From the NCBI RefSeq assembly GCF_000756815.1, contig NZ_CCVW01000001.1, forward strand, positions 1,602,001 to 1,666,000: a stretch of 64,000 nucleotides of DNA, written 5' to 3'. Of this stretch, positions 3,104 to 53,917 are shown piece by piece. The position numbers and the translations under genes are program-made. The notes under the pieces are model-generated. The model saw only the letters and a program-made list of their open reading frames with translations, was not told the origin of the DNA and made no database searches. How positions within the stretch are numbered: the first letter of the stretch is position 1; each line of letters opens with the position of its first letter. The DNA comes from Legionella massiliensis (GTDB lineage: Bacteria; Pseudomonadota; Gammaproteobacteria; Legionellales; Legionellaceae).

Positions 3104-3239
3104 TCACTGCTATTAAGTTAAGGGCATTTGTCATTCCCGCGAAGGCGGGAAACCATCTCTACATTGGCACAGTGCTTAGCTAGAAATAGTTTCCCGCCTT
3201 CGCAGGAATGACAAAACCTTCCTTAACTTAATGGCAGTG
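3104..3239. repeat. MITE-like palindromic element, family B copy 1
   Basis: The element runs from TCACTGCTATTAAGTTAAGG to the near-perfect inverse ending TTAATGGCAGTG, so it has ~20-bp terminal inverted repeats. A second internal palindrome is built on CCCGCGAAGGCGGGAAAC and its inverse. It is flanked on both sides by AGCGTGGGG (3095-3103 and 3240-3248), which looks like a target-site duplication. The site it entered is itself a small palindromic repeat (CCACCGCGCGTAGCGTGGGG) that also occurs near 13175. Confidence 0.85.
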
Positions 3240-10984: not shown

Positions 10985-11160
10985 GACGTATGTCATGTCG
11001 AGCATAGAGAGACATCTCCATAGTGTGGCAGAGTGCTAATCCCGGAGATCCTTCGCTATGCTCCCAAAGACGTACGTCATGTCGAACGCAGAGAGACATC
11101 TCCTGATGTGTAGCACTGTGCTAATCCCGAAGATCCCTCACTATGTTCGAGATGACGGGC
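10985..11160. repeat. Family A palindrome, tandem dimer with 84-bp period
   Basis: Two copies of a unit starting CGTATGTCATGTCGAGC / CGTACGTCATGTCGAAC begin at 10987 and 11071, exactly 84 bases apart. Each reads GAGAGACATCTCC, then a GTGCTAATCCCG loop, then AGATCCTTCGCTATG or AGATCCCTCACTATG. The same 84-bp period occurs in the array at 29070-29455. The dimer fills most of the gap between two minus-strand genes. Confidence 0.85.
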
Positions 11161-20713: not shown

Positions 20714-23074
20714 TTATAACCCAAGACTAGCGACGGGTTCGGACTTTATAACTAGATTAGAAATAGCTTGTTTATCTAATTCATGATCATCACTATATTT
20801 CTGTGCAACCTTTGGATTTTGGAAAGATTCACTAAGGTGCTTTTTCAATTTATTGATAAGCAGCTCATACACTGGCCCATTAAAACTGTTTATTTTCCAT
20901 TCTAGGTCTATGGCAAGCCATGGCGTAGTATAGGGCAGAATTGCTTCTATAACTTTTTTGAGTCTTGCTTTGTCAGCTTGGGTATCTCTATTAATCTGGC
21001 TAATGAGTACAGCGAAATTTTCATGTCTTTCAAGTGGGGTATTAGCGATAAGTATTTGAAATTGCTCGGGCGTTAAAACATTGGCAGCCATTTTACAAAA
21101 GGGTTCTTGCTTATTTTTAAAAATTTCCCAAAATTTATTTTGCTTCTCAGCTCGGATTAATTGTGGCTCAGATAAATTCAGCAAAACGATTTTTAGGCGC
21201 TCCTCACGATTATTCAGGAACGATAGTGCGTTGTTTGTCTTTGCTTCAATAAACCAAAGGTTATCTAAGAGAGAATCAAATTCAGGCAGGGAGGCACGTT
21301 CGACAAGCATTTTAATTCGGTAATCGGGTAAATGACTTAAAACCTCAACGATACTTTGTTCATAAATAAGATAGCTTTCACTATTCAAATGTTGAATGAA
21401 TTCATCAAAGGCGTCATCCTTTATATCTTCTCTTTTAATGGGCGCAGTATTATAGACAGGCGTTGTCGCAGCTTGTACGGTAGCCCATTTTGAAGGTCTG
21501 CGTTCGACTTTCGGTTGATTAGGATCAAAGTCTGCGAGAAATATTTTGTTATTAATATCAATGTAATGCTGAGCTAGTTTAGCTAATTTTTTATTAAAGG
21601 ATACGCGATAGGGTAAATGGGCAATCTGTTGTAGTAGCGCCTCCCGCAGAGTTTCATTCGCATAAGGCATAATTGCGAGAAGTTTGCCTAATAAATGGGG
21701 GGAGGGTTTAAGTTTTTTTACTAAGGTATTGAGCAGTTCTTGTCTTTTTGCATCGGATGCAAATAACTGTAATTGCTTGCGAGTTAAGGTAGTCGCTGCA
21801 GTTTCAGCATAGGCATCTTTATTTAGAATGTTTAGAAAAGTAGCAGAATTAAAAGCAGCTTTTAACTGTTCCTTAGACAGTGCTTTTATCAGCTGGGCAA
21901 GTTTGTCCCTGTTATACTCTCTTTTTGATGGCTCAATTTCTAGTCCATTAAAATGAAACCATACAGAATCTAATCCTCTCGAATCGAGCTGACTAACAAA
22001 AATCTGCAAGTCCTTGGGCGACATTTGCGCCAAGCGATCTAAAAACTCTGACTTGACTAAGGTGGTGTCTTGGTTAATGGAAATAAGGTTTGTAATGTAT
22101 TGATCACCGACCTTCCGTTTATCACTCGGCACTTGTGACGTTTCGGCAGTTGTCTCGCCATAGGCATCTTTATTTAGGATGTGCAGAAAATTAGGGGTAC
22201 TAAGAGCGGCTTTAAATTGTTCCTCAGACAGTGCCTCTATCAGCTGGCTAAATTTGTGCCTGATGTATTCCCTTTTCGATGGTTCAAGTTCCGAGTCATT
22301 AAAATGAAGCCATACAGATTCCAACCCTTCCGAATCGAGTTGGTTAACAAAATCCTGAATGTCTTTGTCCGACATTTGATCCAAGCGATCCAAAAACGCT
22401 GATGCGGCTAAGGTAGTATTTAGGTTAATGGCAATAAGGTTCGCAATGTATCGATCGCCTACCTTACGTCCATCAGTTAGCCTCGGCAGATGTGATGGTC
22501 CAGCTTTTGTATCAGCTTGGGGGAACTTTTCATCGATTTGTTTCGGGGATCCTTCACCATGGGGTTTGGGTCCACTAATTAGAGGCTCTTTCTCAGTTGT
22601 TGCGAAAAAGGTGGTAGAAACAGTGCTAACACTGGCAGATGATAATGGGCTTGGCTCTTGCGCTTTCCTACGCGGGACTTTTTTTAATCTAGTCGCTCGC
22701 TCTTGCTCTTGCTCACTATCCGAATCAATCTTTATCGATAGTTTTTCAGTTGCTAATAATTGTTTCTGGCTTGGCTCTTCATTCTCTACAGTTGCGTTTG
22801 TTAACTCTAAACCGTAAAGAGTCAGATCGAGAGAACCCAAGGAGCCAATTCTTGCGCCTACAAAGCCTGCATCCCAAGCTTTGCCGAAGAGTAGTCCGCC
22901 GAGGAAACCGATAAACCCCAGGACTAAAGATAACGGAGAGGTAAAAATAACGCCTATTGCACCGATAAATAGAAGGAAATAGCCACCAATGCGGGCTAAA
23001 TAATCAGGAGTTTCAGCATTGGAAGAAATCCTTTTTGTTGGTCCATTAACCCTGCGTTTATTCCCTTTAGCCAT
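20714..23074 (-). CDS. Membrane-anchored helical repeat protein with internal duplication, putative effector
   Basis: I take the ATG at 23074 (AAGAAG seven bases upstream; MAKGNKRRVNG) over an upstream TTG, giving 786 residues. Residues ~25-75 hold two hydrophobic segments (YFLLFIGAIGVIFTSP, LSLVLGFIGFLGGLLFG). A 117-residue block is duplicated in tandem: KVGDRYIANLIAINLNTT at 22465 and KVGDQYITNLISINQDTT at 22114, each ending ILNKDAY(G/A)ET. The rest is helical with LSEEQFKAAL / LTPEQFQIL-type units that echo the protein at 60246-62852. No enzymatic motif is seen. A scaffold or membrane-targeted effector is an inference from context. Confidence 0.65.
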   Translation of the reverse strand: MAKGNKRRVNGPTKRISSNAETPDYLARIGGYFLLFIGAIGVIFTSPLSLVLGFIGFLGGLLFGKAWDAGFVGARIGSLGSLDLTLYGLELTNATVENEEPSQKQLLATEKLSIKIDSDSEQEQERATRLKKVPRRKAQEPSPLSSASVSTVSTTFFATTEKEPLISGPKPHGEGSPKQIDEKFPQADTKAGPSHLPRLTDGRKVGDRYIANLIAINLNTTLAASAFLDRLDQMSDKDIQDFVNQLDSEGLESVWLHFNDSELEPSKREYIRHKFSQLIEALSEEQFKAALSTPNFLHILNKDAYGETTAETSQVPSDKRKVGDQYITNLISINQDTTLVKSEFLDRLAQMSPKDLQIFVSQLDSRGLDSVWFHFNGLEIEPSKREYNRDKLAQLIKALSKEQLKAAFNSATFLNILNKDAYAETAATTLTRKQLQLFASDAKRQELLNTLVKKLKPSPHLLGKLLAIMPYANETLREALLQQIAHLPYRVSFNKKLAKLAQHYIDINNKIFLADFDPNQPKVERRPSKWATVQAATTPVYNTAPIKREDIKDDAFDEFIQHLNSESYLIYEQSIVEVLSHLPDYRIKMLVERASLPEFDSLLDNLWFIEAKTNNALSFLNNREERLKIVLLNLSEPQLIRAEKQNKFWEIFKNKQEPFCKMAANVLTPEQFQILIANTPLERHENFAVLISQINRDTQADKARLKKVIEAILPYTTPWLAIDLEWKINSFNGPVYELLINKLKKHLSESFQNPKVAQKYSDDHELDKQAISNLVIKSEPVASLGL

Positions 23075-23196
23075 AGTAATCTTCTTATTTCTGTAGTTTG
23101 TTGATTCCAATTTAAACAAAAATTAGATGGTCAAGCAAATTAGGTTATAACTATCACGTGATATACTGATTTATATCAATTTTTTAAACGGAACCT

Positions 23197-25080: not shown

Positions 25081-25248
25081 TTAGGAGATCCTTCGCTACA
25101 CCCCCAAAGACCTACGTCATGTCGAGCGCAGAGAGACATCTCCTGAGCGTAGCACTGTGCTAATCCCGGGGATCCCTCACTATGTTCGGGATAACGGGGT
25201 CTTTATCGATATTTGCCCCAATGGGGCTGGGCGCTCAGGATGACGAGG
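25081..25248. repeat. Family A palindrome, long form
   Basis: This copy shows the full long form: CCAAAGACCTACGTCATGTCG, GAGAGACATCTCC, GTGCTAATCCCGGGG, ATCCCTCACTATGTTCGGG, then GGTCTTTATCGAT, TTTGCCCCAATGGGGCTGGG and GCGCTCAGGATGACG. The same order occurs inside the NRPS gene at 43467-43613 and, inverted, at 36462-36602. Its last bases contain the stop codon of the GNAT gene. Confidence 0.85.
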
Positions 25249-29069: not shown

Positions 29070-29455
29070 CCGTCATCCAGAGAGCCCCAGCCCCTTTGGG
29101 GCAAACATCGATAAAGACCTCGTCATCCCGAGCGTAGTGAGGGATCTTCCGGGATTAGCACAGTGCCACACTCAGGAGATGTCTCTCTACGTTCGACATG
29201 ACGTACGTCTTTGGGAACGTAGCAAAAGATCTCCGGGATTAGCACAGTGTCACACTCAGGAGATGTCTCTCTACGTTCGACATGACGTACGTCTTTGGGA
29301 ACGTAGCAAAAGATCTCCGGGATTAGCACAGTGTCACACTCAGGAGATGTCTCTCTACGTTCGACATGACGTACGTCTTTGGGAACGTAGCGAAGGATCT
29401 CCGGGATTAGCACAGTGCCACACTTAGGAGATCCTTCGCTACGCTCTGGATGACG
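29070..29455. repeat. Family A tandem array, 84-bp exact period
   Basis: The start CAGGAGATGTCTCTCTACG occurs at 29173, 29257 and 29341, exactly 84 bases apart, and the units are almost identical. Flanking half-units at either end close the array into a long palindrome (ATCCAGAG on the left, CTCTGGATGACG on the right). Because 84 is divisible by three, open frames of 28-residue repeats run across it on both strands; these are not genes. The 28934-29069 bases hold nothing else I can identify. Confidence 0.9.
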
Positions 29456-36461: not shown

Positions 36462-36602
36462 TTGCGCCCCAGCCTCTTAAGGGCAAACATCGATAAAGAC
36501 CTCGTCATCCCGAACATAGTGAGGGATCTCCGGGATTAGCACAGCGCCACACTTAGGAGATGTCTCTCTACGTTCGACATGACGTACGTCCTTGGGAGCG
36601 GA
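36462..36602. repeat. Family A palindrome, inverted long form, copy 1 of duplicated pair
   Basis: GCGCCCCAGCCTCTTAAGGG, ATCGATAAAGACC, CGTCATCCCGAACATAGTGA, GGGATCTCCGGGATTAGCAC and GAGATGTCTCTCTACGTTCG follow in order, ending ACGTACGTCCTTGGGAGCG. It is the same as the element at 25081-25248 in reverse. A second copy starts ~343 bases downstream. Confidence 0.85.
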
Positions 36603-36826: not shown

Positions 36827-36946
36827 GGGCAAAACCGATAAAGACCTCGTCATCCCGAACATAGTGAGGGATCTCCGGGATTAGCACAGTGCTACACTTA
36901 GGAGATGTCTCTCTACGTTCGACATGACGTACGTCTTTGGGAGCGG
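36827..36946. repeat. Family A palindrome, copy 2 of duplicated pair
   Basis: AAAACCGATAAAGACC, CGTCATCCCGAACATAGTGA, GATCTCCGGGATTAGCAC and GAGATGTCTCTCTACGTTCG follow in order. It lies between the truncated and intact 3' ends of the thaumatin-like gene and so marks the duplication junction. Confidence 0.85.
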
Positions 36947-37039: not shown

Positions 37040-39916
37040 CTAGGAAGGAGTAATACTGCGCCCTTCAGTCGCCCCAGCAGGTAAACCAGAAACACCGCCT
37101 GGGCAGAAGGTAACCTGATAGCTGGTAGTCAATGGCGTGCCATTATCCTGATTGCATTGGAATGATGATGAGGGATCATCAAACTGGTATGAATAGGCAG
37201 TTGGGCAGGCCTGTTTCAACCAGGCAATGGCTTGGAAAGGCGTATAGTTACCAACTGTTGCAGAGATTGAATGGGTAGTCCAATCTAAATTCCAACCAGG
37301 CTGATAATTTGGACTGCCATTTCCGCAGGACTCAGAAGGTAGGGTCAGGTTCCAATCGAAACAGCCTCCGCAATGAGCAAAGAAGGTATTTCCAGTTTGA
37401 TAGCAGGAATTAAGCGAGCCATTGTTGGTTATACCTGGGATAGACAGCAAGACATCATAGGCTGGATATTGGTTCCCTGGTAAAACAATATTAGTTCCAC
37501 TTACCAGCGTTGTGCCGTAATTACTGCTACTTGATTGCCCAGCAATTTCTTTACCCATGCCATAGAGTGCGAATAAATTCCTGGATCCCCATTGAGCGTT
37601 GGCAATGTAAGCCGCATCATTGACCAAGGGATTAAACCCTAGAAAACCTCCTTGTCGTCGATTAACCGGCCCAGGCGAGTTTCCATTAGATTGAGGATAG
37701 CTATTGTATGACATACCGCAATTTACGCCATCCGCACAAGCGTTATCTGCTCCGGGAGTAACCCAGTAAAAATCGCTATTAATTGATGAAATTGGCATAG
37801 TTGCTTCAGGGTTAAAATTCCAAGAACAATTTCCAAGGGCATTATTGCTAGCCGGCTGGAGCAAGGCACCGGCGGCAGAACAATTATAAACTGTACCGGC
37901 GGTGTTACCTGTTGTAGGTCCAAAGGCCTTAACCTCTACGGGAACAGTCATGCCGTTGATTACAGAAACATCATAAACCCCATCCGCACCAGGCGTGCTG
38001 AGCATAGTTGCCTCAAACTTAGTAAAGGGGCTTTGTGGTTGAACAGGCCCTGTTCCACCATCTAAGGGCGAAAGGCAGGTTGCACTACCGGGCTTAGTTT
38101 GACAGGTCCCTGTAGCACAATTAAATTGACCATTTTGCATGGTGCAACCTGTTCTGGGCCAAAATGAGCCATTCTGATAACTGCTTAGGGAAAGATCAAT
38201 GGTTGAAGGAGCAACTCCTGCAGTTTGGGCTGAGAGATGATAAGCACTTGCTGGTGCGCCAGCAGGGAAGGTCAATAAATTAGGATCGATTGTTTGGCAA
38301 TTTTGGCCTGGACAATTATTGTTACCACCATTGGCTATACCATACCAGACATCAAAGGGACATTGATTGACAAAGACGACATGATGGCTAGGTTGATTAT
38401 TAGATTGCACGGTCGTAGCCGTTGTACTTCCTGTCGCCGGCGCAACGCCTCCAGTTGGCACAGAAGCTGTCACTGTCAACCCACTCGGGTTAATTGGTGG
38501 GCTTGGTATTATTGAGGCCGTGATGGTGCAGCTTTGACCAGCCGCTAAGCTTGTATTTGAGCACTTATCGTAGGTTGCTGGTGGCTGAGCTGGGGTTCCA
38601 GTAACAGTTGCATTTCCAGTTGTTGCTGTAATCCCAACGGTACCTAAGTTTATAGCATCTGTAGCACAGGTATTGGTTACTTGAAAGGTGACCATATTAT
38701 CTGCGTATAAATAGGTGCTTGTTGGCAAAGGTAGGGTTGCCACGACACTCGCAGAAGTACAGCCGCCACTTTGTGCTTGAATTGCAAAAGTCTTTTGGGT
38801 TGAGGCAGTCGCTTGATCACAAGTGACTTGTGCAGCGAGGGTTGCGCTGCTTGTACTTTGTAAATTAGTTAATTGCCCATAAACCACACAGGGTGGGGCA
38901 TCGGGATTGAGGGTAACAGGTGAGCCTGGTATACCACAGGTCCCTACAGTAGGCTGATTGGTGGTTACTGTAGCAGCTGATTGCGGCGAAATAGTTAATT
39001 CGTTTAGACCCCCAGCAGTTCCTGCTATGCAATTAGTTAGCGGCACACTACCGGTATTGCTAAATTGTACTGCAACAAAGGGTGCCTGATTAGTAAAGAA
39101 TGTGCTGGGAAATGGGTTTGGCTCTGAGAAGTTTCCTACTAAGCTGGCGGTAGAGCCTGCAACTGTTGAGTCGAAGGTCGGGTTAGCTGAAGTCTCATGA
39201 CAAGTTAGTAAAGACCCAATGGTAACAGCACCAACTCTGGTCGGTTTAAATTGTGCGTTCACTACACAACTATTGCTAGCAGAAGATTGCGGCGCTAAAG
39301 CAATAGGGCTATTTACGGTACCGCAATTTGAAGAAAGTACTTGCATTTCTCCCTGGCCAACTGAATTGGGTTCAAGTATTAGCTGATTATTTCCCGCGGC
39401 ATCCCCTAAGAAACAATTAGTTAATCCGGTTGTGCCGTTATTGGTATAGGTAACAGTAAAGGGGACCGCAGCACCTGGATAATTGATTGATAGGGGCAAA
39501 CCTGTAATTTTTCCACTTAGCAAATAAGTTAATGGCGATGCTATCGCAGTCAATGCCGGTACGAAGATAACATTTCGATTATATTGGTAGACAAGTTGAA
39601 AGGTTGATACTACCGCCGTTGTTGGATCAAAAGACAGATGGATATTACAACTAGTGCCTCGAGTTAGTGTCCTTAGGTTACATTGATCGTTATAACTCAA
39701 TGGGGATCCTGAAGATTGAATCATCGTGTAGATCACCACTGGAAAAGGCAAATTGCTTGTCAGGGTATAAACAGCTGGAGCATGCTGACCGGCTTGAATT
39801 GTTACTGGGTTAGTCGCGGGGGTTAATTGCCAGGAGACGGGATCAAAAGCAGCATAACTAAATAGTGGAGCTAAAACGCCATACATCATCAAGCATGTTT
39901 TTATTTTAATTTTCAT
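37040..39916 (-). CDS. Large secreted thaumatin-like protein
   Basis: This 958-residue protein has a signal peptide (MKIKIKTCLMMYGVLAPLFSYA). Residues ~25-505 are Ser/Thr/Pro/Gly-rich beta-sandwich repeats with regularly spaced Cys (NCFLGDAAG, NCIAGTAGG, SCVVNAQFKP). Residues ~510-958 look like a thaumatin/GH64 domain: HHVVFVNQCPFDVWYG at its start, GNCSWNFNP centrally, and CPTAYSYQFDDPSSSFQC with VTFCPGG at the end, the classic thaumatin C-terminal signature. Plant thaumatins act on fungal beta-glucans; bacterial members are little studied. An exported carbohydrate-binding or glucan-acting protein is inferred. The domain is about twice the usual ~210 residues, so it carries insertions. Confidence 0.85.
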   Translation of the reverse strand: MKIKIKTCLMMYGVLAPLFSYAAFDPVSWQLTPATNPVTIQAGQHAPAVYTLTSNLPFPVVIYTMIQSSGSPLSYNDQCNLRTLTRGTSCNIHLSFDPTTAVVSTFQLVYQYNRNVIFVPALTAIASPLTYLLSGKITGLPLSINYPGAAVPFTVTYTNNGTTGLTNCFLGDAAGNNQLILEPNSVGQGEMQVLSSNCGTVNSPIALAPQSSASNSCVVNAQFKPTRVGAVTIGSLLTCHETSANPTFDSTVAGSTASLVGNFSEPNPFPSTFFTNQAPFVAVQFSNTGSVPLTNCIAGTAGGLNELTISPQSAATVTTNQPTVGTCGIPGSPVTLNPDAPPCVVYGQLTNLQSTSSATLAAQVTCDQATASTQKTFAIQAQSGGCTSASVVATLPLPTSTYLYADNMVTFQVTNTCATDAINLGTVGITATTGNATVTGTPAQPPATYDKCSNTSLAAGQSCTITASIIPSPPINPSGLTVTASVPTGGVAPATGSTTATTVQSNNQPSHHVVFVNQCPFDVWYGIANGGNNNCPGQNCQTIDPNLLTFPAGAPASAYHLSAQTAGVAPSTIDLSLSSYQNGSFWPRTGCTMQNGQFNCATGTCQTKPGSATCLSPLDGGTGPVQPQSPFTKFEATMLSTPGADGVYDVSVINGMTVPVEVKAFGPTTGNTAGTVYNCSAAGALLQPASNNALGNCSWNFNPEATMPISSINSDFYWVTPGADNACADGVNCGMSYNSYPQSNGNSPGPVNRRQGGFLGFNPLVNDAAYIANAQWGSRNLFALYGMGKEIAGQSSSSNYGTTLVSGTNIVLPGNQYPAYDVLLSIPGITNNGSLNSCYQTGNTFFAHCGGCFDWNLTLPSESCGNGSPNYQPGWNLDWTTHSISATVGNYTPFQAIAWLKQACPTAYSYQFDDPSSSFQCNQDNGTPLTTSYQVTFCPGGVSGLPAGATEGRSITPS

Positions 39917-40085: not shown

Positions 40086-40424
40086 TCATTGATTCATATT
40101 AGATTGTTCATAAGAAGTGCCAGTTCCAGAAGCATCAGTGCCTGTACCAGAAGTGCCAGTTCCAGAGGCATCAGCCCCTGGGTTTACACTAAGATTTCCA
40201 GACTCCCCATTTCCTGTACTAGAAGTAGCAGTTCCAGAGGCATTGGCTCCATTGCTTGAAGTAATATTGCTAGAAGCATTATTTCCTGCGTTGGAAGTGC
40301 CAGTTCCAGAGGCATCGGCCCCAGGGCTTGCTGTAAGATTTCCAGAGGAGTCATCAGCAAAGCTGTTTTCTATAAAGGCAGCGCTTAAAATTAATGATAG
40401 GGCTAAAATGGTGATCCGTTTCAT
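40086..40424 (-). CDS. Secreted low-complexity Gly/Ser/Thr/Asn repeat protein
   Basis: I take the ATG at 40424 (GGAG six bases upstream), giving 112 residues. The signal peptide is MKRITILALSLILSAAFIENSFA. The mature chain is almost entirely repeats of the type GADASGTGTS, NGANASGTATS and GTGTDASGTGTS, with a short charged tail (YEQSNMNQ). The repeats are imperfect at DNA level, so selection seems to act on composition. Function unknown; such chains may be surface or matrix proteins. Lies directly upstream of the thaumatin-like gene's promoter region, on the opposite end of a 170-base gap. Confidence 0.65.
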   Translation of the reverse strand: MKRITILALSLILSAAFIENSFADDSSGNLTASPGADASGTGTSNAGNNASSNITSSNGANASGTATSSTGNGESGNLSVNPGADASGTGTSGTGTDASGTGTSYEQSNMNQ

Positions 40425-40572: not shown

Positions 40573-40656
40573 GTTGTAGTCTTTAATCGCTTGACTAAAC
40601 TTTAAAATTTGCCATCCACCAACTATGCTTTAATTTTAGGGAGTGGAAAAGTTGGA

Positions 40657-42885
40657 ATGGAAAAAAAGCTATTTTACCGATTAGGAAGGCTTGTTTTTCG
40701 GTTTCGCTGGAGTCTCATTTTGGTTTGGGGGCTGATAATCTTAGCCTCCGCTTCTGTTCTTTTAACTATTGCTGCCCCCTTTAAAAGCACGGGCTTCATA
40801 GATGAAAACTCAAAAAGTGCTAAGGCGCAACAATATCTCAACGATAAGTTTGGTTACAATGATCAGAATAAGATTTTAATTATCTACCATAGCTCTAAGC
40901 TTCTGGCTAATCAGTCACTGTTTATAGAGAAAATAAAAAAATCGCTTTCTGAGTTAAAAGATTTCCCTATTAAACATGAAATTATTCTGCCTTCCGATAA
41001 AAATAAGCAAATCTCTAAGAATAAGCATACAGCCTATGTCGTATTAATCATGGAGAGCCCTGAAGTGCTTGGGTCTAAAGACATCCTTCGCATCAAATCA
41101 TTGATAAACACACCAGCCAATATGACTATTGAAATTGGCGGACAGGCTTTGTTTATTAATGAAGTGAATAAACAAACTCAAAGAGATCTTTTTCGTGCAG
41201 ATATCATTGCAGCACCTGTTGCAATGGTTACCCTGGCTTTTGTTTTTGGATCACTAACTGCCGCTGTATTACCGATAGTTTTAGGTGGGGGCTGTGCCTT
41301 AGTTATTTTAACTTCACTTTATATAATTGGAGAGAGTTGGACTCTGTCAGTTTATACGCTAAATATTGCTTTACTCTTGGGGCTTTGTCTAAGTCTGGAT
41401 TATGCGCTATTTATCATCAATCGCTTTCGTGAGGAATTTCATAATGGAATCAGTGTCGACGTAGCAATTGCTATTACTGTCGAAACAGCAGGGCGAGCTA
41501 TTTTTTATAGTGGTTTAGCAGTGTTAGTTAGTTTAAGTGCTTTATTCTTGTTCCCCATAAATATCTTATTTTCTATGGGGTTAGGTGGTGTTATTGCTGT
41601 TTTCGTTGCGGTAATTAATGCCATTTTTATACTTCCAGCAGTTCTTGGAATTATTAAAAGTAAAATTGATTTTTTACCGATTAAATTTAATAGAAAAACA
41701 AATAAAAATAAAACATCATTTTGGCATTGGTTAGCTGAAAAAGTAGTGAACAGGCCTTTAGCATTTTTCTTTCCAGTGATTGTTTTTTTATTAATGCTTG
41801 GTTATCCAATGACCTCTGTTAAATTTGGTGTTTCTGATTATCATATAATCCCTAAAAGCACAGATAGTAGGCAATTTTTTGACAGTTATGAAAAGTATTT
41901 TGATATTAAACAATTAACGCCAATTATCTTATTAGTTCATTCTCCTCATGGTTATATTTTGTCAAGAGAAAGCATATCAAACTTATATAATTTTGTGCAG
42001 AAATGGAAGGATAACTCCTTAGTAAACCGTATTAGTGGAGTTGTTTCATCTGATTCAGAGTTAACTAGTAAAGAATATTACAACTTATATTCAACTTCTA
42101 AGAATCATTTACCAGATAATATTAAACAATTACTCTCTACAACGACCAAACATTTATTCACGGTATTAAATGTTACTAGCAACTATAAGCTCAATTCTGA
42201 TCAAACAACAGAGCTGGTAAAAAAATTAGAAACCACCAAATCCTCATCAACGAAATTAGATATTCAAGTCACTGGTACTCCGGCTCTAAATGCTGATGTT
42301 CTATCAAAGGTTTTTGAAATCCTTCCTTACGCCTTATTATGGATTATGGTCTTTTCCTATCTTATTTTATTGTTTTTATTACGTTCTTTATTTTTGCCTT
42401 TTAAAGCGATTTTAATGAATATACTGAGCCTTTCCGCTTGCTATGGCGCTCTAGTATTAGTGTTTCAAGAGGGACATTTAGCAGAGTATTTCAACTTTGA
42501 GCCGCAGGGTCTCTTGGATATAAACTTATTAGTCATTATTTTTTGTGCTTTATTTGGTTTTTCCATGGACTATGAAGTCTTTTTATTATCGAGAATAAAA
42601 GAAGCCTATCAAGAGTGTAGCGATAATAAAGAAAGTATTATTTTTGGTATTGAAAAGAGCAGCAAAATTATTACCTCTGCTGCCTTAATTGTTATTGTTA
42701 TTTGTGGTTCATTTTTAGTTGCTAATGTATTGATGGTAAAGGCATTTGGGCTAGGCATTGCAGTCGCAATTTTTGTCGATGCCTTTTTAATACGTACACT
42801 TTTGGTGCCTTCTACCATGGTACTTTTGGAAAAATGGAATTGGTATCTTCCAAAATGGCTAGATAAGGTTATACCAGAATTGTAG
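40657..42885 (+). CDS. MmpL-type RND transporter
   Basis: I take the ATG at 40657 (MEKKLFYRLGRLVFRFRW); an upstream TTG at 40609 is weaker. The ~742-residue chain has the RND two-fold plan: one membrane helix, an extracytoplasmic domain (~35-170), five helices, then the same again. The paired proton-relay motifs are present: SLDYALFIINRFREE in the first half and SMDYEVFLLSRIKEAY in the second. Actinobacterial MmpL proteins export lipids and lipopeptides. The gene ends 17 bases before the NRPS gene, so the natural inference is that it exports the NRPS product. No outer-membrane or adaptor partner adjoins it. Confidence 0.88.
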   Translation: MEKKLFYRLGRLVFRFRWSLILVWGLIILASASVLLTIAAPFKSTGFIDENSKSAKAQQYLNDKFGYNDQNKILIIYHSSKLLANQSLFIEKIKKSLSELKDFPIKHEIILPSDKNKQISKNKHTAYVVLIMESPEVLGSKDILRIKSLINTPANMTIEIGGQALFINEVNKQTQRDLFRADIIAAPVAMVTLAFVFGSLTAAVLPIVLGGGCALVILTSLYIIGESWTLSVYTLNIALLLGLCLSLDYALFIINRFREEFHNGISVDVAIAITVETAGRAIFYSGLAVLVSLSALFLFPINILFSMGLGGVIAVFVAVINAIFILPAVLGIIKSKIDFLPIKFNRKTNKNKTSFWHWLAEKVVNRPLAFFFPVIVFLLMLGYPMTSVKFGVSDYHIIPKSTDSRQFFDSYEKYFDIKQLTPIILLVHSPHGYILSRESISNLYNFVQKWKDNSLVNRISGVVSSDSELTSKEYYNLYSTSKNHLPDNIKQLLSTTTKHLFTVLNVTSNYKLNSDQTTELVKKLETTKSSSTKLDIQVTGTPALNADVLSKVFEILPYALLWIMVFSYLILLFLLRSLFLPFKAILMNILSLSACYGALVLVFQEGHLAEYFNFEPQGLLDINLLVIIFCALFGFSMDYEVFLLSRIKEAYQECSDNKESIIFGIEKSSKIITSAALIVIVICGSFLVANVLMVKAFGLGIAVAIFVDAFLIRTLLVPSTMVLLEKWNWYLPKWLDKVIPEL

Positions 42886-42902: not shown

Positions 42903-45900
42903 ATGCGTAAAAAACAAAACGATGATGATCAACAAACCATAGTTTGCATGTTTGAACAGCAGGTTGTGCGAAAGCCACAAGCAGTTGCAATAATTTGTGG
43001 AAAGCAGTCTATCAGCTATGACGAACTCAATCAGAGAGCAGATCAGTTGGCCTATATCTTAGCTGAACAAGGAGTAGAAAAGGATAGACCCATTGCCATC
43101 TGCATGCCTCGTTCTATCGATTTTCTGGTTGTGATTCTTGGGATCTTAAAGGCTGGCGGAGCCTGTGTTCCCTTAGATCTAGCTAATCCTGAAGAAAGAT
43201 TATTGCGTATTTTAAGCGACGATCAGATTCCAATGCTTATTACAACAAATGAGATGGATCTAAAACTGCGAGGTTATCAAGGCAGGATTTTTGTTGTTTC
43301 TAATCAATTAGAAACAAAAAAACCTAGGTTCAAAGCGACAGTCTTGCCTGAGCAACTGGCTTATATTATTTATACCTCAGGAACAACAGGGAAGCCAAAG
43401 GGTGTTTTAATCGAACATAAAAGCATTGTTAATTACACAAAATGGTTTGCTGAGGTTTGTTCCCTAGGCGCTCCCAAAGACCTACATCATGTCGAACGTA
43501 GAGAGACATCTCCTGAATATGGCAGAGTGCTAACCCCGGAGAGCCCTCACTACGTTCGGGATGACGGGGTCTTTATCGATGTTTGCCCCAAAGAAAGGGG
43601 CTGGGGCGTTCAGGAACGAATTGATTTTTCTTCCAATCATGCCTTTGATTTTGCCTTAACAACATCAATAGTTCCCTTATTACTGGGATTAACTGTTGTA
43701 ATTTGTGAAGACAAAATAAAAAAGGATCCTGATTTATATATCGATTATCTTCAGGCTAATAAGATCAGTGTTATTAAATTAACGCCTAGCTATTTTCAGG
43801 TGCTACTACAGCAAGCAGAAATGAAGACTAGTTCCTTAGATTGTTTAGAAAAAATTATATTAGGAGGCGAAAGACTATTAGCAAAATATTGCGCTTCTTG
43901 GTTAGCTCTTTATCCCTCTCATATCTTGTTTAATGAATACGGTCCTACGGAAACTACTGTTGCTGTTAGCTCAAAGCGAGTTGATAAAAAAAATATTAGT
44001 CATTTAGAAGCCGATGTACCAATTGGATCGATGATCCCTAATTGTGATTTTTATATTATGAATGACGAGGGAAAACCTGTTGAAAAAGGAGAGGTTGGTG
44101 AGCTTTGGGTAAGTGGGATTTGCCTGGCACGAGGTTATTTAAATCAAGCGGCATTAACTGCGAGAAAATTCATTAAAAATCCCTATGATTCAGACCAAAA
44201 TTCTTATTGGTATAAAACAGGGGATCAATGTCGTTTTCTCCCCAACTCAGAGCTGGATTACCTAGGCCGAATTGATGAGCAAATTAAGATCAGAGGATAT
44301 CGTATTGAGCCTGCAGAAATTGAAGATTCTTTAAGGCAACATCCTGCATTAGAATCAGTAATGGTTGACGCTGTTGATGATCATCGAAAAGAAAAAAGAC
44401 TAGTTGCTTATTATATTTTGCATAATAAAAAAATGCCGATTGCTGATGGGGATCTTCGCCAATATTTAAAACAGTATTTGCCTGATTATATGATTCCCGC
44501 TTTTTTTATAGTTATGGAGTCATTTCCTTTAAATGCAAATGATAAACTAAATCGCAAAGAATTCCCTGTACCTGACTTTATTCAGAATGTTGACTATGAG
44601 AGACCTGAGAACTCCTCAGAAAATACAATTGCTAGAGTTTGGTCAAATGAATTTGGTTATGAGGTTATTGGTATTAATGAGAACTTTTTTGAGTTAGGAG
44701 GTCATTCACTATCGGCAGCTAGAATTATTTCAACGCTAACCCAGGTAATGGGTAAAAAAATCAGCATGCAGCAGTTTTATCAGAATCCTACAATAAGAGC
44801 TTTAGCCAATTTGCTAGATAAACAGGAAAAAATTAGTCGTTTCGCTAAATTTCCTAAAAAAATTTACCAAAAAAACTTTCAATTGCTACTAAGTGATTTT
44901 CAATTTATTTTGTGGTTATCCAAAATTTTTGAACCTAAAGCCAATAAGCTAAATATATGTAGTCGCAAACGATTTCATGGATACTTGGATGAAAAAAAGA
45001 TTCATGAATCCCTTGATTTAATTTTAAAAAAACATGAGGTATTGTCCTATCGGGTTTCAAGTTTTATTCCCATGCAACAACGAAGCAAAAAAAAGTTGAA
45101 AATACAAATTGAAATTAACCATTTAGAATCACTGGCAATTAATAGAAGTGAACTAATTTTAGAACAATCTATAAATGATTTAAGATCTAAATACTTATGG
45201 TCTAAAAATTACGCTCTATTTAAAATCCGCTTATTTTATCTGGAAAGAGGGATGACAGAATTACAGCTCTGTACCCCTCATATCATTTCTGATGAGCAAT
45301 CTCATGAAATTTTGTTTGACGACTTATCTCAATTTTATCTCGCGAATGCTTTGAAAAAATCGAAAAAAGATCAGTCATATCGAGAATATTTATATGCAGA
45401 AAACGAGGACATTAATTCTAATAAAGATAGCAATATTTTGTTTTGGAAAGGCTATTTAAAAGAAGCTTCTTTGTTTGCTATCCCGCAACCTTATGTTGTC
45501 TCTAACATGAAAAGGTATAAATTCGCTTATTCAAGCTATACAGAAATACCTGAAAATTCCTTAGAGGATTTAAGGATTTTTTGTTCAAAAAATCATTTTA
45601 GTTTTGATAATGGCTTATGCGGGGTTTTATTGCTCGCTTTAACTAGACTTGCAGGCGAATTAAATAAAAATTCAGTGATCTGTATCAATAAAGTAAAATC
45701 AGCACGTGATAATTCTAGATATGATAGCACTATTGGTTGTTTTCTAAATTTAGAATTAGCTAAAGTAAAAATTGATGAGCAGCAGGATTTAGCTTCATTC
45801 TGTCAGCAGCTTAGTGAATCAATTATCAGAAGCAACCCTTATCAAAGCTGTTCAAATCTAATAAAACTCGCAAGTGTAGGCAGTTTTAGCAAGCTCAATA

Positions 45901-46286
45901 GAGTTAAAGATCTAGCCTTAAACTCACTGGTTTCACTTTATAATTTGATTTTTTCTCCTTATAAAATTAATAAAACGGTGATTAATTCTGGTCTTCGTTT
46001 AAAGACCGTTAAAGATAATTATTTTTTAATTAACGTTAATATTTATAGTAGTTTTTTACAAAGAGATAAAAGAAATGATCCTCTTTTTGGATATGCGCAA
46101 GAACCAATTCCAAGCAATAAACATGACTTATTAACAATAGACAATTTTCTTGATATTTGTTTTTTACGAATGGAAAACCATAAACCTTATCTAGTTGTAT
46201 CAGCGAATTTAACCTCAGAATTTCAAGAATTACTTAGACAGCAAGTATTAGAAATTTTTGAATCAATCAGGTCTTCTGACATTTAA
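42903..46286 (+). CDS. Single-module NRPS (A-PCP-C) with in-frame repeat insertion
   Basis: In this 1127-residue protein the adenylation domain (~10-550) shows YIIYTSGTTGKPKGVL (A3), NEYGPTETTV (A5), YKTGDQCRF (A7), IKIRGYRIEPAEIE (A8) and NDKLNRKEF with the A10 lysine. The carrier domain (~565-640) has ENFFELGGHSLSAA, with Ser for phosphopantetheine. The last ~480 residues are condensation-like, but HHxxxDG reads PHIISDEQS, keeping only the second His and the Asp. There is no thioesterase. Residues ~189-238 between A3 and A4 are encoded by a family A repeat (43467-43613), and the frame stays open. Product unknown; the MmpL gene upstream is the likely exporter. Confidence 0.88.
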   Translation: MRKKQNDDDQQTIVCMFEQQVVRKPQAVAIICGKQSISYDELNQRADQLAYILAEQGVEKDRPIAICMPRSIDFLVVILGILKAGGACVPLDLANPEERLLRILSDDQIPMLITTNEMDLKLRGYQGRIFVVSNQLETKKPRFKATVLPEQLAYIIYTSGTTGKPKGVLIEHKSIVNYTKWFAEVCSLGAPKDLHHVERRETSPEYGRVLTPESPHYVRDDGVFIDVCPKERGWGVQERIDFSSNHAFDFALTTSIVPLLLGLTVVICEDKIKKDPDLYIDYLQANKISVIKLTPSYFQVLLQQAEMKTSSLDCLEKIILGGERLLAKYCASWLALYPSHILFNEYGPTETTVAVSSKRVDKKNISHLEADVPIGSMIPNCDFYIMNDEGKPVEKGEVGELWVSGICLARGYLNQAALTARKFIKNPYDSDQNSYWYKTGDQCRFLPNSELDYLGRIDEQIKIRGYRIEPAEIEDSLRQHPALESVMVDAVDDHRKEKRLVAYYILHNKKMPIADGDLRQYLKQYLPDYMIPAFFIVMESFPLNANDKLNRKEFPVPDFIQNVDYERPENSSENTIARVWSNEFGYEVIGINENFFELGGHSLSAARIISTLTQVMGKKISMQQFYQNPTIRALANLLDKQEKISRFAKFPKKIYQKNFQLLLSDFQFILWLSKIFEPKANKLNICSRKRFHGYLDEKKIHESLDLILKKHEVLSYRVSSFIPMQQRSKKKLKIQIEINHLESLAINRSELILEQSINDLRSKYLWSKNYALFKIRLFYLERGMTELQLCTPHIISDEQSHEILFDDLSQFYLANALKKSKKDQSYREYLYAENEDINSNKDSNILFWKGYLKEASLFAIPQPYVVSNMKRYKFAYSSYTEIPENSLEDLRIFCSKNHFSFDNGLCGVLLLALTRLAGELNKNSVICINKVKSARDNSRYDSTIGCFLNLELAKVKIDEQQDLASFCQQLSESIIRSNPYQSCSNLIKLASVGSFSKLNRVKDLALNSLVSLYNLIFSPYKINKTVINSGLRLKTVKDNYFLINVNIYSSFLQRDKRNDPLFGYAQEPIPSNKHDLLTIDNFLDICFLRMENHKPYLVVSANLTSEFQELLRQQVLEIFESIRSSDI
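43467..43613. repeat. Family A palindrome inserted in frame in the NRPS gene
   Basis: GCGCTCCCAAAGACCTACAT, CATGTCGAACGTAGAGAGAC, ATCTCCTGAATATGG, GCTAACCCCGG, CCTCACTACGTTCGGGATGA and CTTTATCGATGTTTGCCCC match the long form at 25081-25248 step for step. It encodes about 50 residues (APKDLHHVERRETSPE through RGWGVQ) that have no counterpart in adenylation domains. No stop or frameshift is introduced. Confidence 0.92.
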
Positions 46287-47769: not shown

Positions 47770-49206
47770 ATGACCATAAGTACTCTGGCTGACTTAAGAC
47801 AAAATAAAGTTTTTCTACTCTTGAATGAAATCCAAAGTGAGTATGATGCAGCAGACTCAGCTGTACTCAGCGATCGATTTACGCGTTCTCCTATGCACGC
47901 GATACAATTTTTAATTGCTTACGCAGGTCTGGATCAAAACCAACGAAGACAGGTCATTGTCAATCTAGACTATGAAATAGCTTTGCAAGAGCTAGATGCG
48001 CTGATCGATGATATTGACTGGGCCGCACTGTTAAATTCTCCGAAGCGAGAAACCTTAGACTTTGAATTTACAATTAGTTTGGCCGACAGAGGCCAATTTC
48101 TTAGTGCAGTAAAATCAAGATGTCCGCAGCTATATACAGCTTTGCATAGTAAGGAGAACGGTTTTGTGCATATTGAAAATGCTGACGAAGTCATTTTCAC
48201 TACAAAAATTGCGCAAAAAGAGAAGTGGCTAAGGCCATTCGAACGATGGCCTGGAGATAATTTCTGGATTGTTCCAGACTTTCGTTTAAGTGATGCAGTA
48301 CTAGATACTCTTAATTCGCTGCCAGAAGGTAAGAAACACGTTATAAATGGTTTTACCCTTAGCAAGGGAAGGGGATGGAAGGGGGCGCCGCCGGAGATAG
48401 AACTTCATATCGCTGCCCCTCGTCGTTCTAATCAATATGCAGTTGAAAGTAAAATCAAAACAAATCAGGGAATCTATGGTGCTTTTGTCGGGTTAGAAAA
48501 TTTTTATGGCTTGCATCGGGTCGATGATCTGCGTGTTGAAATTGAAAATAAAGCAATGTTCTCCGATGAAGGTGCTTGGGCATCACAAACTCAAGTCAAT
48601 ACTTATATCGCAGAAAGTGGCCTAGTTAGCTTTGCGAGTACTGTTGAGGTAACTCAGATTAATGCTTTTTTTGAAGGTGCGGGTATTGTCGCTAGTTTTA
48701 TTGATGGGACAGAAAAAGGCGAGCATTTTGATAGTCAATTTTATGTGGAACTACCCACCCAAAATCAAGAGAATGGACCTATTAGATTATTTGCTTCAGC
48801 CCCCAAACCACAAGATGCCTTTATTTTGGTAGCTAGACGAAGTGAATTAAGCTCATCGCAAAACATGGATTTTTCAGTCCTCAAGCTACAAGATGACTTT
48901 ATTGTGACAGCTAGACCAAGTGGATTTGGCTCATCGCAAAACATCGATATTGAGTTTGTAAATACTCAAAAGAATGAAGGAACAACTAATTACTCATTCT
49001 ACCTTAAGTGTTTATCTGGTTTTGCCTTTGTGGCGGGTGGAGCCTTACTTGTTGTTGGGCTTATTATGGTTAATCCAATCTTGTGGGGTGTCGGAGCGGC
49101 AGCCTTTGGCGTTGGCGGCCTTAGTCTCTTTGGTTTATTTGCTGCAGGAGATTGTTTCAATAGTTCGCCGAAGAATGAAAGCCAGGAACCCTCCTTTTCA
49201 ATGTAG
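47770..49206 (+). CDS. Effector-like protein with C-terminal membrane hairpin
   Basis: A 478-residue protein of unknown family. Residues ~1-345 are soluble, with no catalytic motif seen. At ~348-400 a 26-residue unit is repeated: PQDAFILVARRSELSSSQNM then LQDDFIVTARPSGFGSSQNI. Two long hydrophobic segments follow (LSGFAFVAGGALLVVGLIMV; ILWGVGAAAFGVGGLSLFGLF), forming a hairpin, and a short polar tail NESQEPSFSM. C-terminal hydrophobic hairpins are common in vacuole-targeted effectors of intracellular bacteria. That role is an inference. Confidence 0.6.
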   Translation: MTISTLADLRQNKVFLLLNEIQSEYDAADSAVLSDRFTRSPMHAIQFLIAYAGLDQNQRRQVIVNLDYEIALQELDALIDDIDWAALLNSPKRETLDFEFTISLADRGQFLSAVKSRCPQLYTALHSKENGFVHIENADEVIFTTKIAQKEKWLRPFERWPGDNFWIVPDFRLSDAVLDTLNSLPEGKKHVINGFTLSKGRGWKGAPPEIELHIAAPRRSNQYAVESKIKTNQGIYGAFVGLENFYGLHRVDDLRVEIENKAMFSDEGAWASQTQVNTYIAESGLVSFASTVEVTQINAFFEGAGIVASFIDGTEKGEHFDSQFYVELPTQNQENGPIRLFASAPKPQDAFILVARRSELSSSQNMDFSVLKLQDDFIVTARPSGFGSSQNIDIEFVNTQKNEGTTNYSFYLKCLSGFAFVAGGALLVVGLIMVNPILWGVGAAAFGVGGLSLFGLFAAGDCFNSSPKNESQEPSFSM

Positions 49207-49283: not shown

Positions 49284-49418
49284 CCACTGCTATTAAGTTA
49301 AGGAAGGTTTTGTCATTCCCGCGAAGGCGGGAAACTATTTCTAGCTAAGCACAGTGCCAATGTAGAGATGGTTTCCCGCCTTCGCGGGAATAACAAATGC
49401 CCTTAACTTAATGGCAGT
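49284..49418. repeat. MITE-like palindromic element, family B copy 2
   Basis: CACTGCTATTAAGTTAAGGA to CCTTAACTTAATGGCAGT, inverted relative to copy 1. It is flanked by CACCCTAAGCGC (49272-49283) and CACCCTGAGCGC (49419-49430), a 12-base direct repeat with one mismatch that fits a target-site duplication. The body carries TCATTCCCGCGAAGGCGGGA and its inverse. Confidence 0.85.
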
Positions 49419-53794: not shown

Positions 53795-53917
53795 TCCTTT
53801 AATGGCATTTGTCATTCCCGCGAAGGCGGGAAACCATCTCTATATTGGCACTGTGCTTCTTAGGAATAGTTTCCCGCCTCCTTTAATGACAAAACCTTCC
53901 TCAACTTAATGGCGGTG
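53795..53917. repeat. Family B element copy 3, left end degraded
   Basis: GGCATTTGTCATTCCCGCGA and GGCGGGAAACCATCTC to AATAGTTTCCCGCCTCC and AACCTTCCTCAACTTAATGG. The left terminal repeat is missing (AGCCTCCTTTAATGG instead). The right arm has lost part of its palindrome. Confidence 0.8.

Follow-up and report, generated by a model that had tools for sequence, protein, structure and literature searches.

A palindromic element in frame within a nonribosomal peptide synthetase gene of Legionella massiliensis, and related insertions in other genes of Legionellaceae

How can a palindromic repeat come to lie inside a protein-coding gene and leave it readable? The question is raised by a nonribosomal peptide synthetase (NRPS) gene of Legionella massiliensis, located in a stretch of 64,000 nucleotides (contig NZ_CCVW01000001.1, forward-strand positions 1,602,001 to 1,666,000; hereafter the window, whose own numbering is used) of a genome of 4,382,654 bases in 8 contigs (G000). 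The adenylation domain of this conserved NRPS carries a copy of a palindromic element between the motifs that we take to be A3 and A4 (Table 1). A sequence-only reading of the window had proposed an in-frame element at this place that adds about 50 residues; its position and frame hold, while the length is corrected here to a net 46 residues (138 nt).

The insert and its absence from relatives

The in-frame insertion of the element within the NRPS is confirmed by alignment with related open reading frames (ORFs). Residues 191-236 are exactly missing in all 23 ORFs from relatives (about 19 distinct, as four pairs look like one gene found by both search tools; 4 of the 23 rows are partial), and both sides of the gap are in register. 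The insertion site is a stretch of residues that is variable among the relatives, downstream of which all sequences are in frame. Among 22 genomes of the genus searched for the NRPS, one gave nothing that passed the threshold, and in G001 the hit, a different and larger synthetase, was excluded from the comparison. Three distinct relatives (L037-L039) are of lower similarity and lie on contigs other than that of their own MMPL-family gene. The closest relatives with named records are those of Legionella nautarum (56%), Tatlockia metagenome-assembled genomes and L. tunisiensis. The idea that the NRPS inherited the segment as a loop from its ancestors, and that the element arose from it, is rejected because all 23 ORFs lack the insert residues; no palindrome-free orthologue with the same residues was found among them, the genome has 127 matches to the element, and the element is present in other species. 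We give this idea practically no weight. It is highly probable, judging from these alignments, that a genome-wide palindromic element, found at this place in no other sampled relative, inserted beside a CTC in the NRPS, in frame and in the lineage of this genome.

The element is not a chance resemblance, since the first 41 bases of its 5' end match 127 places with at most 3 mismatches and the reversed pattern matches none in the 4.38-Mb genome; its 3' module has 50 matches, with 0 for the control. The consensus has AAAGAC/GTCTTT as the outer arms of a long hairpin, followed by a separate 3' hairpin, GCCCC-AAAG-GGGC. The predicted fold energy is -58.6 kcal/mol for the NRPS copy, against -41.6 (standard deviation 3.8) for 100 simple shuffles, and -61.5 against -42.7 (standard deviation 3.9) for the consensus. 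In 45 aligned copies a CTC stands immediately 5' of the element in 33 and within 3 bases of its 3' end in 36, and in the latter the next bases are AG in 20 and TG in 8. The element is probably mobile.

Copies with a 5' end, 115 in number, were examined in 74 genome stretches and the window. Three of them are spanned by a frame that stays open for 60 codons or more on either side. One is the NRPS copy; the other two belong to a single tandem array, which itself constitutes the surrounding ORF, and therefore 1 of the 115 lies within a real gene; the element is nearly always outside genes (114 of 115 canonical copies). The two copies that the sequence-only reading had placed at 25081 and 36462 are real, with refined boundaries (Table 1).

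The element also takes part in arrays. At L087 (G000:C1:1699726-1701448) it forms a tandem array of more than 12 units, repeating about every 124 bases, and arrays of 84 nt (28 codons) occur at L114:1108-1626, where a 172-aa ORF traverses the array, and at window 29148-29455. The ORFs spanning the element at L114 and L153 were set aside as tandem arrays of the element. The copy at L060:1180-1318 follows an ABC transporter gene, whose last codons and stop it supplies, and precedes a different gene; it was rejected as an in-gene copy.

Table 1. Location of the NRPS gene, its insert, other copies of the element, and in-frame captures elsewhere (window positions unless a locus is named)
Feature	Location	Strand	Remarks
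MMPL-family transporter gene	40609..42885	+	17 bases upstream of NRPS; yardstick for evolutionary rate
NRPS gene carrying the insert	42903..46286	+	1127 aa without internal stop; Pfam AMP-binding, PP-binding, Condensation (adenylation, carrier, condensation)
A3 motif (YTSGTTGKPKG)	43371..43403	+	residues 157-167; one T against S in the other nine rows shown
Left direct repeat GGCGCTC	43467..43473	+	at insertion point
Palindromic element, in frame	43471..43611	+	net 138 nt, residues 191-236 (46 codons), plus one CTC/TTC direct-repeat copy
Main palindrome AAAGAC...GTCTTT	43476..43574	+	element folds as single long hairpin
AAAGAAAG	43590..43597	+	3' hairpin loop; second AAAG; single unit in the other 57 tails
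Right direct repeat GGCGTTC	43605..43611	+	followed by AGG
Phe-Asp of A4	43644..43649	+	residues 248-249, about 11 residues past insert
Partial element copy	11061..11159	+
Element copy	25103..25231	+	outside long ORFs
Element copy	29084..29216	-	at edge of 84-nt tandem array
Element copy	36465..36598	-	outside long ORFs
Element copy	36827..36943	-	outside long ORFs
Capture, G000: phosphoenolpyruvate (PEP) carboxylase	L231:6355-8838 (G000:C1:1014354-1016837)
Capture, G000: 1699-aa ORF, kinase domain			repetitive stretch
Capture, G000: FliK
Doubtful capture, G000: PMT-like protein (L234)			N-terminus
Captures, G007: AddA/RecB-like helicase-nuclease; NRPS condensation domain
Captures, G020: two adjacent ORFs of polyketide synthase (PKS) type	L237:7197-7297, L237:12904-12983 (G020:C18)		one cluster, opposite orientations
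Capture, G064: GlnE
Captures, G072: PKS; Smr protein
Capture, G091: 2000-aa ORF			weak AAA/STAND/LRR matches
Capture, G099, G119, G127: one shared PKS

Length, reading frame and the state of the gene

An element of the usual length would shift the frame of the NRPS upon insertion. For the 58 copies extending to the 3' end, the net length is 134 nt in 23, 133 in 12, 124 in 11 and other values in the rest, and in 51 of them it is not a multiple of three. The NRPS copy reaches 138 nt because its 3' hairpin, and no other among the 58 tails, has AAAGAAAG, which contributes four extra bases. The same string with GGGG is present at one further place in the fetched loci of this genome, in unrelated sequence of another gene. 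We infer that the duplication of AAAG restored the reading frame; it may have preceded, accompanied or followed the insertion. The most simple way in which such a tandem duplication could arise in the loop of the 3' hairpin would be replication slippage, and it would either have mended a frame already shifted or have come with the insertion. The four bases are unique among the tails and known from the assembly alone, and this is also what a sequencing or assembly error at AAAGAAAG in a truly frameshifted gene would give. Such a random 4-base error would have had to strike the sole copy in a real gene and mend its frame, and we regard it as very improbable.

If the frame was restored, the gene may still be functional, and several comparisons agree with this. 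Across 14 orthologues, NRPS identity tracks that of the adjacent MMPL-family gene (mean residual 0.001), and the terminal branch takes up 7.05% of the NRPS tree, against 7.98% of the MMPL tree. In the ten rows shown the A5 motif, the YKTGD of A7, the carrier serine and the His-x3-Asp of the condensation domain are kept, the exception being T for S in A3. The encoded peptide would then probably be a tolerated surface loop in an NRPS that still works.

Other observations weigh against this interpretation. Among 15 rows the window NRPS departs most from columns that are otherwise invariant (16 of 250, the next row having 14 of 248), and a mild relaxation of the NRPS is therefore possible; in a set of 18 rows, with 9 departures in 152 columns, it stands behind the two most divergent rows only. 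The divergence covers the whole branch and does not measure the time after insertion. A length that keeps the frame is no peculiarity of the NRPS copy, as six of the other 57 share it through other changes, and the order of insertion and AAAG duplication rests on one genome. The direct repeats are not clean everywhere, 27 of 45 copies being flanked by CTC at both ends, and no transposase was tied to the element in a search of the Y1 family. The single Y1 (PF01797) gene of the genome has a weak 45-base match to the element about 2 kb away, and a link between the two is unsupported.

The invariant-column departures and the six frame-keeping lengths would also be consistent with the NRPS being a young pseudogene, struck by the element and open by chance only. 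The coding potential of the element points the same way, in that the plus-strand frame used in the NRPS, that of copies starting at CTC, contains no stop in 21 of 45 copies of this genome, against 14% per frame expected for shuffled copies. (The minus-strand frames of these copies are open in just 1-3 of 45, and in G007 and G021 one minus-strand frame is stop-free in 8 of 12 copies.) Against a pseudogene stand the 1127 codons without an internal stop, the inspected motifs, kept except for one S to T in A3, and an identity that matches the expectation from the neighbouring gene; moreover, the copy with the duplicated AAAG is the one of 115 that lies in a real gene. We consider decay unlikely, and prefer a lineage-specific insertion into a gene that would have remained in use.

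In-frame captures in other genes

The canonical copies alone would make the NRPS a singleton oddity, a view that is overturned by kin elements in other species and by searches with the encoded peptides, which also gave diverged copies in other genes of this genome. The peptide of the NRPS copy and that of the opposite orientation were searched in 143 Legionellaceae genomes and gave matches in at least 15 and at least 22 genomes, respectively. Most matches are in short frames. Those in ORFs of more than 200 aa, 15 places besides the window and the array ORFs, were read individually, and their ORFs were scanned against Pfam, whole or in part. In G000 scoring covered 49 of 426 and 52 of 511 candidates, and a like limit applied to several other genomes; the capture counts are therefore lower bounds. 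At least 12 in-frame captures in long genes, in both orientations, are found besides that of the window, and one further is doubtful (Table 1). The latter, in the PMT-like gene, is left out of the total of 13 because the insert is N-terminal and translation may start downstream. In 20 stretches from four other genomes, three copies are inside long ORFs that are not arrays.

The captured copies encode related peptides within each orientation. Some of the protein matches are weak (E up to 0.0093), and confirmation at the DNA level therefore matters: a profile trained on 57 copies from outside the capture genes finds all 15 places, with E from 4.6e-31 to 1.9e-7, and none of the reversed loci at E <= 0.1. 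In Legionellaceae kin elements have repeatedly been captured by unrelated genes, with the frame kept and in either orientation.

Orthologues without the insert were sought for the window NRPS, the shared PKS and the PEP carboxylase. For the last of these no orthologue was found in 21 other genomes of the genus at E <= 1e-60, and the gene has therefore possibly been acquired from elsewhere; aligned with the solved E. coli enzyme, it has 76 residues opposite 41 at the place of the insert. Aligning the GlnE and AddA/RecB-like proteins with solved structures did not fix the position of the insert.

The shared PKS, matched in 7 of 45 genomes of that genus, carries the element in its KR-KS linker in G099, G119 and G127. 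Orthologues without it are present in G103 and G125, and the linkers of G095 and of the more distant G134 are different. The length of the insert is constant over 38 codons in the three species. Its proportions of nonsynonymous and synonymous differences (pN/pS) are 0.089/0.122, 0.165/0.096 and 0.194/0.115 (ratios of about 0.7, 1.7 and 1.7, from counts as small as 2.5-3 synonymous changes), against a ratio of about 0.25 in the flanks. The peptide thus seems to drift as if neutral, with the frame kept and selection undetectable.

Six of the 13 events, that of the window included and the doubtful one excluded, are in NRPS or PKS ORFs, where 0.18 would be expected (P about 9e-9; about 5e-7 for five or more). 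The expectation is derived from carrier-domain ORFs of more than 450 aa, which occupy 0.4-2.5% of the coding sequence of the genomes involved at an assumed coding density of 87%; the comparison is post hoc, excludes short ORFs, and counts two events from one cluster. Enzymes of natural-product synthesis are seemingly over-represented among the captures, which we take as a lead; long modular proteins may simply be more tolerant of inserts. Such an excess is what might be seen if the insert in the NRPS had been selected for a new function, in regulation of the adenylation domain or in docking. The shared PKS insert, in which this can be examined, albeit in a different gene, evolves as if its sequence were irrelevant, and we find selection for a new function improbable. 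Tolerance of a lineage-specific insert in a working gene remains our preferred reading.

The window holds other repeats as well. A second repeat, TGTCATTCCCGCGAAGGCGGGAA, occurs at 3127-3215, 49309-49397 and 53808-53896 and by eye resembles what we take to be the CGTC-1 or dRS3 type of repetitive extragenic palindrome (REP). Tandem repeats of 36 nt (12 codons) lie at 40114-40346, between the ORFs 37040-39916 and 40609-42885. The ORF at 47770-49206 contains a 78-nt tandem duplication at 48795-48950 with its frame intact, and the minus-strand ORF at 20714-23119 a 300-nt direct repeat at 21801-22451, the two copies being 78% alike.

Relation to known elements and significance

In-frame palindromes are already known as a kind. 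The Rickettsia palindromic elements are palindromic sequences of about 150 bp that occur in frame in unrelated genes and elsewhere (PMC10969869, PMC3733652). The Legionella element is likewise palindromic and occurs in intergenic DNA as well as in frame in unrelated genes, and its captured copies in different genes encode related peptides, per orientation. The likeness is drawn from behaviour and not from sequence, and Rickettsia belongs to another class of bacteria. Here, in addition, 114 of 115 canonical copies are outside real genes, both strands are coding, and NRPS/PKS genes are seemingly over-represented. The analogy with the Rickettsia elements had been put forward in the sequence-only reading, and the likeness in behaviour now has stronger support from the further captures in this and other Legionellaceae genomes.

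The CGTC class of REP is also close in some respects. In one survey these repeats have an 8-9 bp stem, a 4-5 base loop and, mostly, a CCA tail; they form inverted pairs and take intragenic positions, also in recB, in several species, with no dedicated transposase reported; RPE-4 and RPE-6 of R. conorii are recorded there as CGTC repeats, and the word Legionella does not occur in its main text (PMC3733652). The consensus CGTCAT...ATGACG of the Legionella element has, by eye, the CGTC tag and A-T at the first two stem positions, and no dedicated transposase flanked by the Legionella repeats was found among Y1 transposases. It is, by contrast, one unit, usually of 134 nt, in which a long hairpin is followed by a second one at the 3' end; its lowest-energy fold pairs both arms into the long hairpin, CTCC follows the arm, and it extends beyond the tags. 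Its stem, loop and tail differ from those of the CGTC REPs, and we therefore do not place it in that class.

The enterobacterial RU elements, described as mobile repeats of 103-168 bp with reading frames and found inside gene loci (PMC2759123), are likewise small, mobile, ORF-bearing and intragenic; they belong to another lineage and are likened here by description only. For a comparison with miniature inverted-repeat transposable elements, the arms read AAAGAC/GTCTTT and CTC stands at both ends of 27 of 45 copies; an autonomous partner was sought among Y1 transposases and not found there. No published description of the element in Legionella was found among titles and abstract openings, a scope outside which most subscription journals lie.

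We tentatively envisage, as a possibility that is rather doubtful as a whole, a coding-palindrome system of Legionellaceae: a mobile element readable on both strands, preferentially surviving in NRPS/PKS megasynthases where it would give loops and linkers, and with a hairpin that slips in 4-base steps and so reopens insertions that were frameshifted. In-frame palindromic insertions are best known from Rickettsia, where it is an open question how selfish DNA lengthens proteins harmlessly. Legionellaceae offer a second, well-populated case in an unrelated and genome-rich family, with orthologues that are free of the insert. An insert shared by three species and a copy fitted by a unique 4-base duplication would make origin, tolerance and gain of function measurable. 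The excess in NRPS and PKS genes, if it holds, would mark the linkers of megasynthases as landing grounds for new sequence.
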